From NCBI RefSeq assembly GCF_004216915.1, contig NZ_SGXD01000004.1, forward strand, positions 1 to 64,000: a DNA stretch of 64,000 bases, read 5' to 3'. Of this stretch, positions 32,714 through 35,509 are shown piece by piece. The DNA is from Motilibacter rhizosphaerae (GTDB lineage: Bacteria; Actinomycetota; Actinomycetes; Motilibacterales; Motilibacteraceae). How positions within the stretch are numbered: position 1 is the stretch's first letter; each line of letters starts with the position of its first letter. A program made the translations under genes and the position numbers. The notes beneath the pieces are model-generated. The model saw nothing but the letters and a program-made list of their open reading frames with translations. It was not told the origin of the DNA and made no database searches.

Positions 32714-33040
32714 CTACCGCCGCCAGCGCCGGCGACGACCAGCAGCACGCAGTCCGAGCGCTGCCGCGAACGCGTCGGCGTCCGCCAGCGCCCCCTCCGG
32801 CGGACGCGGACGGGTCGCCGCGTACTCCGCGAACGCCCGGGCGAACCCGTCCCCGCACGCCCGCACCAGGTCCGGCCGCAGCGCCGCGACGACCATCCGC
32901 CGCTTCCCCACCAGGGCGTCCGCCTGCGCCCGCACCTGCCGAGCGTCGAAGCCGTCGGGCGGCGGTCCGCCGGCGACGAGCGCCGCCATGAGCTCGGCCT
33001 GCGCCTCCGCGAGCGCGGCCCGAGCGGCCGGGGAGCTCAC
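32714..33040 (-). CDS. Small DUF2063-like partner of the MNIO enzyme
   Basis: 108 residues from a GTG overlapping the MNIO stop (GTGA). The sequence is a compact helical protein; [18 protein letters not shown], then [14 protein letters not shown] and [18 protein letters not shown], resembles the N-terminal domain of DUF2063 (HvfC/BufC-type) proteins that accompany DUF692 enzymes, but it is much shorter. Family knowledge: MNIO enzymes generally need a partner that presents the precursor peptide. I infer that role here. The Arg-rich tail (GRRRRWRR) is unusual. Its end lies 7 bases from the polymerase stop (convergent). Confidence 0.65.
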
Positions 33041-33864
33041 GCGGCCGCCTCGAAGCCCGCCGCCGCCCGGATCGCCGCGAGCTCACCTCGCAGCTCGGCG
33101 TCGCTCGGGTAGTCGCCATCGCGCTCGAGCATCACCGCCGGGAGCGGCCCCCGCTCGCGCGCCGCCACCAGCAGCTCCAGCACTGCCGCGGGCACCGGGT
33201 GCCGGTGCGTGTCGTGCCACATCCCGTCGCGCAGGATCCCGCCGGCGACGTGCACGTACGCCACGGCCTCCATCGGGACGCAGTCGAGCTCGCGCAGCGG
33301 GTCGAGGCCCAGGTTGACCGCGTTCGTCCAGAGGTTGGCGACGTCGAGGACCAGCCGTACGCCCGTACGCGCCACCAGCTCGGCGAGGAACTCGCCCTCG
33401 GAGAGCTCCGCGCCCGGCCACTCGAGCAGGGCGGCGACGTTCTCCACCGCCAGCGGCACGGGGAGGGCGGCCTGCGCCTGGCGGACGTTGTCGACGAGGA
33501 CCTCCAGGCACTCGCGGGTACGCGGCACGGGCAGCAGGTGCCCGGCCTCCAGACCACCGGCCCGGACGAAGGCCACGTGGTCGCTGACGAGCGGCGAGCC
33601 GAACGCCTCCGCGCAGGCCCCCAGGTGCGCCACCCGCGCCTCGTCGAGCGGCTCGGCCCCGCCGAGGGAGAGGGTGACGGCGTGCGGGAGGACGGGGATC
33701 CCGCGCGCGAGCAGGGCCTCGAGCGAGGCCGGGAGGTGGGCCAGGTGGATGCCCTCCGCGACCACCTCGACGAAGTCCAGCCCGGGCATCCGCTCGACGG
33801 TGAGATCGATCTCGGGCCGCCAGCCGATCCCGAGGCCGCGGACGGGTGCCGGTTCAGCTGCCAC
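33037..33864 (-). CDS. DUF692-family multinuclear non-haem iron oxidase (MNIO)
   Basis: 275 residues from the GTG at 33864 (GGGGAGG about 8 bases upstream; a GTG at 33873 is the alternative). TIM-barrel metal motifs: HAVTLSLGG (His61), SDHVAF (Asp95, His96), ENVAAL (Glu141), LDVANL (Asp174), VAYVHVAGG (His205), HDTH (Asp218, His220) and LERD (Glu247). Known members (MbnB, TglH, BufB) oxidise peptide cysteines using two or three irons. One usual residue differs: the NHG segment reads NLG at 184-186. The gene overlaps the TIGR04222 gene by 11 bases and the partner gene by 4, so all three are co-translated. Predicted substrate: the Cys-rich tail of the TIGR04222 protein. Confidence 0.88.
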
Positions 33865-34516
33865 CGCAGCCACCTCCCCCGCAGCCGCTGCTGCCGCAAC
33901 CGCTGCTGCCGCAGCTGCTCGCGCCCCCGCAGCCGGAGTGGCCACCGCACGAGGACCCGCCGTCCGACCCGCCGCCCCAGCTGACGAACCCGGCCGCCCA
34001 CCCGTCGCTCGAGCTGCTCCTCGCCCGCTGCCGGCGCCCGCACCACGCCTCGCCCCCGAACAGCGCCTCGCGCAGCTCGACGTCGTCGAGCCCCGCTGGC
34101 CCCACCAGGGCGACAGTCCGCACCGCGTCACCACCCGCGCCCACGCGGCGCTCCCGGTCGAGCACCCGGCGCCCCTCCGCCGACCGGGAGGACGGCACCT
34201 GCGCCGACGTCGAGAACCACCACAGCAGCGAGCGGCGCAGCCAGCCGCGGCGTACCAGGTCCGCGTGCAGCGCCGACAGCCTCGCGTCCGCGACCGCCCG
34301 TGCCCGCGGGCTCGGCGACTCCTCGGCCAGCGCGTCCAGCACCGCCGCCTCCACCGGGTCGACCGCACGGTGCTCCACCACCGTCATCGGACCGCTGCGC
34401 GTGGCGCGCACGCGGCCGTCGAGCACCAGGGCCACGAGCGCCGCGTCGACGCAGCGTCCGGCACCGCCGGCGAGCATCGCCAGCGCGTACGGCGAGACCT
34501 GCTCCACGTCCTCCAC
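33854..34516 (-). CDS. TIGR04222 protein with Cys/Gly-rich tail, probable MNIO substrate
   Basis: 220 residues from a GTG with GGAGG upstream. Residues 7-150 match the actinobacterial TIGR04222 domain ([20 protein letters not shown] is its usual opening). From about 167 the chain becomes Ser/Gly-rich and ends in a tail with cysteines at 190, 196, 202, 207, 212 and 217, spaced 6, 6, 5, 5, 5, interleaved with Gly, Ser and one His. Such a tail resembles the core of a ribosomally made, modified peptide. The gene is the first of the operon with the MNIO and partner, and divergent from the XRE gene at 34634. No clear membrane segment is seen in this copy. Confidence 0.85.
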
Positions 34517-34593
34517 CTGCCACCTCCTCTGGTCCTCGAGCGGTCGGACGACCGCTCAGCCGGACTGTTGCCCACTGGTGAGGTGGAGGGAAG

Positions 34594-34616
34594 TATGCTT
34601 GCAATATTGCATGCAA
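34594..34616. promoter_or_regulatory. Promoter with TTGCAA-type overlapping palindromes
   Basis: TATGCT (34594-34599) could be the -10 of the XRE gene. It runs into the perfect palindrome TGCAATATTGCA (34600-34611), which overlaps the perfect palindrome TTGCATGCAA (34607-34616). The A/T-rich block stands out from its surroundings. Probably the operator of the adjacent XRE regulator, acting on both directions. Confidence 0.6.
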
Positions 34617-34633: not shown

Positions 34634-35509
34634 GTGCACGACTCCCCCTCCGCCCGCGAGCGCCAGCTCGCCCGCGAGCTCCGCGACCTCCGTGTCGACG
34701 CGCAGCTGCAGGGCAAGGAGGTCGCGCGCCTGCTCGGCTGGTCCGCCTCCAAGGTGTCGCGCATCGAGACCGGCGCCATCGGAATCCGGCCGGAGGACCT
34801 CGAGCTGCTGCTCGACGTCTACGCCGTCCCCGCACCCCGCGCGGAGCGGCTGCGGCTGCTCGCGCCGAACGCCCGCCCCAAGGGGTGGTGGGACGCCTAC
34901 GCCGACCGGACCAGCGCCGGCTACGCCAACCTCATCCGCCTCGAGGCCAGCTCGCGCGCCGTCCAGTGCTACAGCGCGGTGATCCCGCACCCGCTGCTGC
35001 AGACCGAGGCCTGGACCCGCCGCGTCATCCTCGCGACCGCGCTCGACCCCTCCCCCGCGGAGGTCGACCTGCGCATGGCCATCTGCCGGCGCCGCCAGCA
35101 GCTCCTCCAGCCGGCACCCGACCGCGAGCCCCTCCGGCTCGCTGCGGTGGTCGACCAGGCCGTGCTGCACCGCAGCGTCGACCCGGACCCCGAGGTCGAC
35201 CGCGCCCTGCGCCTCGAGCTGCTGCGCCACCTGCTGCGGCTCGGGCGCCGCCCCAACATCACCGTCCAGGTGCTGCCCTTCAGTGCCGGCATCCCGCCCG
35301 TGACAGCCGGGTCGTTCTCGCTGCTGGAGCCGCGCGGGCTCGACGCTCCGGATGTCGTCTACATGGACAACAAGACGCGCATCTTCTTCCTCGACTCCCC
35401 GACCGAAGTGCACGCCTACGACCGCGAGATGGCGCTGCTGCGCACGATGGCGCTGACCCCCGCCAGGTCGGCGACCTGGCTCAGGGACGCCGTCCGCTCG
35501 ACCGCCTAG
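34634..35509 (+). CDS. XRE-family regulator with DUF5753 domain
   Basis: 291 residues from a GTG with AAGGAGG five bases upstream. Residues about 10-65 form a helix-turn-helix (LGWSASKVSRIETGAIGIRPEDL); the rest is the DUF5753 effector domain with a typical VQVLPFSAG and FSLLE block. Family knowledge: such genes are usually paired with a small DUF397 gene, which is absent here; instead the divergent neighbour is the TIGR04222-MNIO operon, a likely target. Its stop codon is shared as CTAG with the convergent gene 35506-35811. Confidence 0.88.
   Translation: MHDSPSARERQLARELRDLRVDAQLQGKEVARLLGWSASKVSRIETGAIGIRPEDLELLLDVYAVPAPRAERLRLLAPNARPKGWWDAYADRTSAGYANLIRLEASSRAVQCYSAVIPHPLLQTEAWTRRVILATALDPSPAEVDLRMAICRRRQQLLQPAPDREPLRLAAVVDQAVLHRSVDPDPEVDRALRLELLRHLLRLGRRPNITVQVLPFSAGIPPVTAGSFSLLEPRGLDAPDVVYMDNKTRIFFLDSPTEVHAYDREMALLRTMALTPARSATWLRDAVRSTA

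Follow-up and report, generated by a model that had tools for sequence, protein, structure and literature searches.

A cysteine-tailed TIGR04222 protein, predicted to lack a membrane anchor, in a putative MNIO modification unit of Motilibacter rhizosphaerae

Few sources of new post-translational chemistry are as productive as MNIO enzymes. TIGR04222 proteins represent the largest putative MNIO protein substrate for which no product is known. In Motilibacter rhizosphaerae, genes for both overlap at one locus, which raises the question of what such an enzyme modifies: might its target be the tail of a protein, and on which side of the membrane would tail and enzyme meet? The locus was analysed within a window of 64,000 nt, the whole stretch of DNA considered here (contig NZ_SGXD01000004.1, positions 1 to 64,000, forward strand; Table 1).

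The locus and its published relatives

A first-pass annotation described three minus-strand genes, encoding a TIGR04222 protein with six regularly spaced tail cysteines, a DUF692/MNIO iron oxidase and a DUF2063-like protein, and it called the system undescribed. The reading frames overlap by 11 bases (TIGR04222 and MNIO) and 4 bases (MNIO and partner) as it stated, and its assignments of the first two genes hold at the profile level. Its interpretation of the locus as a modification operon, composed of a precursor-like tail, an MNIO and a partner, is still the best reading. The claim of novelty does not survive, as the TIGR04222-MNIO-partner cluster type is already known bioinformatically.

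Table 1. Features of the three-gene unit, in window coordinates
Feature	Position	Strand	Evidence
TIGR04222-domain protein, 220 aa, soluble, putative modified protein	33854..34516	-	64.2 bits vs cut-off 43; no plausible TM segment
Disordered Gly/Ser/Cys tail, residues 186-220, putative MNIO substrate	33857..33961	-	Cys positions, low pLDDT, C212-G213 invariance
MNIO (DUF692, PF05114) enzyme, 275 aa	33037..33864	-	PF05114 E 1.7e-75
Small partner, 108 aa, four-helix, DUF2063-like (PME-type 2)	32714..33040	-	Profile A1, AlphaFold, sub-threshold DUF2063 in family
Ribosome-binding site AGGAGG, first gene	34523..34528	-	Sequence; GTG start at 34516 six bases on

Antoine et al. 2025 (PMC12452194) reported TIGR04222-MNIO gene clusters and named their partners PME-type 2. 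Among the proteins without a signal peptide that are encoded ahead of MNIO genes in their survey, TIGR04222 proteins are the most numerous group (40%). They are integral membrane proteins with a tail predicted to be periplasmic, and this Cys-rich tail is proposed as the modified substrate. PME-type 2 partners were found in at least 10% of TIGR04222-MNIO clusters, and many clusters were said to lack a partner. The Motilibacter locus shares with these clusters both protein families, the TIGR04222-MNIO-partner order and a Ser/Gly tail with cysteines. One published partner (PME-type 2 example A, from Saccharothrix sp. NRRL B-16314) has 115 residues, as does the partner at our locus L188 from the same strain, a correspondence by strain and length. 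The published proteins, however, are multi-TM with a tail predicted to be external, whereas the window protein has no TM segment and its tail is predicted to be internal. Consequently, the locus represents a variant, and not a plain member, of the published cluster. What is new here, as far as sequence comparison can tell, is this anchorless variant, the internal topology predicted for the tail, and the distribution of the partner across a known cluster type.

Just upstream of a divergent XRE/DUF5753-type regulator gene (34634-35509, + strand) lie two overlapping perfect palindromes, TGCAATATTGCA and TTGCATGCAA (34599-34616). They could form an operator located between regulator and three-gene operon. 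TTGCAATATTGCA occurs once in the genome.

Association of tail, enzyme and partner

The window TIGR04222 protein carries cysteines at residues 22, 159, 190, 196, 202, 207, 212 and 217, the last six at the positions first claimed for the tail. These six fall in the final 31 residues (hypergeometric p 1.1e-4), and each is followed by Gly. AlphaFold assigns a pLDDT below 50 across residues 168-198, and a Foldseek search with the TIGR04222 domain model returned no significant PDB relative. Among 29 relatives C212-G213 is invariant, and across the tails of related loci Gly directly follows 278 of 358 cysteines.

The association between Cys-tailed TIGR04222 genes and DUF692 genes, which the first-pass annotation had put forward for a genome survey, is borne out in 297 genomes of the class. 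MNIO genes occur in 66 of these genomes and TIGR04222 matches (threshold E 0.001) in 99. The two co-occur in 54, giving an odds ratio of 37 and a p of 4e-28, which ignores kinship among genomes. Further counts were made on the best-scoring 101 TIGR04222 matches, from 79 genomes. On this basis, 46 of 75 MNIO genes have a same-strand TIGR04222 gene no more than 6 kb away, and at least three cysteines are present in the last 70 residues of 36/53 MNIO-adjacent TIGR04222 genes versus 8/47 others (p 3e-7). Where the TIGR04222 gene precedes the MNIO gene, a Cys tail is found in 27 of 29.

Scanning genome contigs with the window MNIO yielded 78 related loci, mostly from Lentzea, Saccharothrix, Actinoplanes and relatives, and Nocardia, with one planctomycete. 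In 76 of them the contig extends over the stretch upstream of the MNIO, and all 76 encode a Cys/Gly/Ser tail there; 73 were recognised by a filter and three (L196, L228 and L261) by reading frames. Two of these, the orphan loci L196 and L261, had been candidates for tail-less loci, and were rejected when their frames were read and showed tails. The planctomycete locus (L228, Singulisphaera acidiphila) has the same three-gene order, and its MNIO is 59% identical to that of the window, an arrangement that suggests horizontal transfer. One record titled Rhodococcus sp. (L239) was given a cyanobacterial family label in the tree output, which looks like an error in the taxonomy.

Might the tail be nothing but low-complexity drift at a G+C-rich gene end, its clustering with MNIO genes coincidental? 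The tail DNA is a repeat of GGC/AGC/TGC, and its final Gly codons (GGA GGT) double as the MNIO ribosome-binding site, as such drift might produce. Against this, the tail is conserved over dozens of genera and in Singulisphaera, Cys-Gly near its end does not vary, and Cys tails concentrate beside MNIO genes. We regard drift as extremely improbable.

The window MNIO aligns with TglH (8hci) at E 2.2e-24, and also with 3bww. Eight residues that are invariant among 141 MNIOs (H61, H96, E141, D174, H205, D218, H220 and E247) are all intact in it. We take these conserved His/Asp/Glu residues to be metal ligands, from the alignment and general knowledge of the family. Its best NCBIfam model is MNIO_BufB (E 2.9e-52), with 177.6 bits against an equivalog cut-off of 310, and the MbnB model gives 35 bits only. 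The locus shares with TglH/TglI and MbnB/MbnC an MNIO-partner pair, the MNIO fold and the His/Asp/Glu set, but the substrates of those systems are short peptides (TglA, MbnA).

The description of the third protein as DUF2063-like stands in part. Of the 39 members of its family, 8 match DUF2063 below threshold (best E 0.0022), but for the window partner no Pfam or NCBIfam match was significant. Its AlphaFold model has four helices (pLDDT 91), and P28, G30, D32, K46, R47 and P56 are invariant in the alignment of the 39 sequences (A1). Foldseek found no significant PDB relative and did not confirm a fold match to NGO1945/TglI, and the partner profile matched no PDB sequence. A comparison by hhalign with true DUF2063 proteins was not significant, with just two sequences on that side. 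True DUF2063 genes occur in 4 of the 297 class genomes, three of them (G232, G291 and G252) beside other, bufferin-type MNIOs.

Profile A1 detects the window partner in its own genome at E 3.3e-31. Across the 297 genomes it has 62 matches, each immediately downstream of an MNIO. It is present in 46/46 TIGR04222-linked MNIO loci, and a partner occurs in at least 74 of the 76 loci related to the window MNIO that cover the upstream stretch. Further, MNIO and partner share one uninterrupted frame in 33 of the 62 (L102, L105, L116 and 30 others, mostly from one Streptomyces-rich clade and family f18), connected by variable low-complexity linkers. We read these as natural fusions, although internal start codons could make some of them distinct genes in the same frame. 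Such fusions argue for enzyme and partner working as a complex, and together with the profile distribution they are strong evidence, at the level of gene content, that the small partner acts with the MNIO. Presence in all linked loci and a shared frame in about half of the matches make the partner standard, not occasional, in contrast to the minimum of 10% in the published survey. That survey examined genes after the MNIO, and one-frame fusions may explain why partners were a minority in it. The main text of Antoine 2025 (PMC12452194) does not mention MNIO-partner one-frame fusions.

Other carriers of the tail and the side of the membrane

Most TIGR04222 proteins have one N-terminal membrane segment (TM1) and a C-terminal hairpin. 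Over the 20 residues that flank the hairpin on each side, the net charge is positive in 84 versus 2 MNIO-adjacent proteins with TM1 and in 17 versus 0 without it, and the short N-terminus and the hairpin loop are nearly free of positive charge. The charge bias thus places the tail inside in 101 of the 103 scored MNIO-adjacent proteins. By the positive-inside rule, these flanking charges predict that domain and tail are cytoplasmic.

Loss of membrane segments points the same way. Lentzea and Saccharothrix forms lack TM1 across the whole open frame, leaving two TM segments, and have no signal peptide. Membrane segments are absent altogether from the TIGR04222 proteins of the window, G003 and G070. 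In the window protein, the highest 19-residue Kyte-Doolittle value is 1.68, at residue 14, where the modelled domain has its first helix, which holds R21 and D23; the hydropathy peak of the G070 protein falls in the C-terminal part of the domain. Judged by hydropathy, the membrane anchor is gone from the window protein. A quick MNIO tree places the two-TM and zero-TM forms together in a single supported group of 31 rows (SH-aLRT 96), which suggests that anchor loss is a trend in that lineage.

From charge bias and anchor loss, we consider the tail very probably cytoplasmic, the opposite of the published periplasmic placement. A cytoplasmic tail would also be within reach of a cytoplasmic enzyme, with no further explanation required. 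Bufferins are modified in the cytoplasm and exported afterwards; together with the published topology prediction (PMC12452194), this gives some substance to a tail that is modified inside and then displayed outside the membrane as a periplasmic or extracellular metal trap. However, this would run counter to the charge bias and to the two-TM relatives that have neither the first segment nor a signal peptide, and for the three proteins without TM segments an outside tail would need an unknown export route. We judge an external tail very unlikely.

The tail is also found on proteins of other kinds. Proteins of 88-119 aa (L115, L119, L130, L132, L133, L137 and L138) have one N-terminal helix followed by arginines, which again imply a tail inside the cell, and a Cys/Gly/His tail. 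They adjoin the same MNIO-partner pair, without TIGR04222. In G284, a soluble 447-aa protein with a Cys/Gly tail (L124:2058-3399) is encoded directly upstream of an MNIO-partner fusion frame, and no TIGR04222 domain, membrane segment or Pfam match was found in it. Comparison across loci shows that tail, enzyme and partner are inherited together, that enzyme and partner are often fused, and that carriers vary while the tail stays. Constancy of the tail under a changing anchor and domain argues for the tail as substrate, and we think it probable that the MNIO acts on its cysteines.

A different reading is that the tail binds metal or serves in redox reactions unmodified, as a metallothionein-like segment, with the MNIO target encoded elsewhere. 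About 15 loci, mostly from one Streptomyces-rich MNIO clade, would fit it: they retain the MNIO-partner pair, in most cases together with a Cys-less TIGR04222 protein, and within 3.5 kb there is no Cys tail. The pair can thus be maintained in the absence of a tail substrate in cis. Conversely, L127, L136, L151 and L153 are Cys-tailed TIGR04222 genes with no MNIO beside them, but all four genomes hold an MNIO elsewhere. Translational coupling of tail, MNIO and partner, and the tail that still adjoins the pair where the TIGR04222 domain is absent, also speak against an unmodified tail, which we hold to be fairly unlikely. Four genomes of the Streptomyces-type loci (G074, G100, G122 and G132) encode, elsewhere, an orphan TIGR04222 protein that has no TM segment and ends in a Gly-rich tail with one Cys (L156, L106, L172 and L110), a possible substrate in trans.

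Two apparent losses were set aside. The G003 contig breaks off within the MNIO gene, whose start directly follows the tail, and this genome is not a case of MNIO absence. The tail-less TIGR04222 gene of G002 (L159), a relative without MNIO, does not count as independent co-loss, its sequence stopping before the tail. A single deletion may have removed tail, MNIO and partner together, leaving this gene as an operon remnant.

Putative product and significance

We propose that the three genes form a unit in which a protein, and not a short peptide, is the target of post-translational modification. The MNIO iron enzyme, in complex with its small DUF2063-like partner, would oxidise cysteines of the disordered Cys/Gly/Ser tail, and tail, enzyme and partner would meet in the cytoplasm, as charge bias and anchor loss indicate. 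On balance we favour this proposal as a whole.

Its later steps are drawn purely by analogy. The product could be a Cys-derived heterocycle, such as the bufferin-type thiooxazole, that binds copper or another soft metal, and the modified protein could be a cytoplasmic metal buffer or sensor, usually membrane-bound and here free. Bufferins carry copper-binding thiooxazoles, and an EGKCG motif is found in bufferin relatives (PMC12452194). Thiooxazole is the leading analogy because BufB is the nearest curated model, albeit under its cut-off, and Cys-Gly is common to both motifs. The bufferin system (BufA, the MNIO BufB and the DUF2063-RRE partner BufC) likewise combines an MNIO, a DUF2063-type partner and a Cys-rich substrate. 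It differs in several respects. The window substrate lacks a Sec signal peptide, its N-terminus ahead of the domain is not hydrophobic, and it matches no bufferin model; the window partner has no RRE-length region and no DUF2063 match over the cut-off, which separates it from PME-type 1. Thiooxazole-type chemistry on the tail is a tentative suggestion, somewhat doubtful in our view.

Metal handling, suggested by the same bufferin analogy, has in our estimate not quite an even chance of being the purpose. Within 5 kb of the 78 related loci, no other gene is conserved across families, and no conserved metal transporter, metal sensor, protease or exporter was found. The neighbourhood consequently gives a metal function no support. 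It also sets the unit apart from RiPP systems with a cleaved leader, as does the substrate, a folded protein of 220 aa in place of a short leader-bearing precursor. With neither protease nor exporter in the conserved unit, the product is probably the modified protein and not a released peptide.

We speculate, with slightly less than even confidence, that the Cys/Gly tail is a portable tag, and that one often-fused MNIO-partner pair modifies any carrier facing the cytoplasm. Carriers would range from TIGR04222 proteins with three, two or zero TM segments to one-helix anchors and unrelated soluble proteins. Modified tails would then stay in the cytoplasm on full-length proteins, as opposed to exported peptides.

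With a soluble 220-aa protein, a 275-aa enzyme and a 108-aa partner, expression and mass spectrometry should be far easier than for the membrane forms, making the fate of the tail directly testable. The MNIO-partner fusions mark the partner as a general part of the TIGR04222-MNIO system. A cytoplasmic tail, if confirmed, would call for revising the published picture of a periplasmic, bufferin-like trap.
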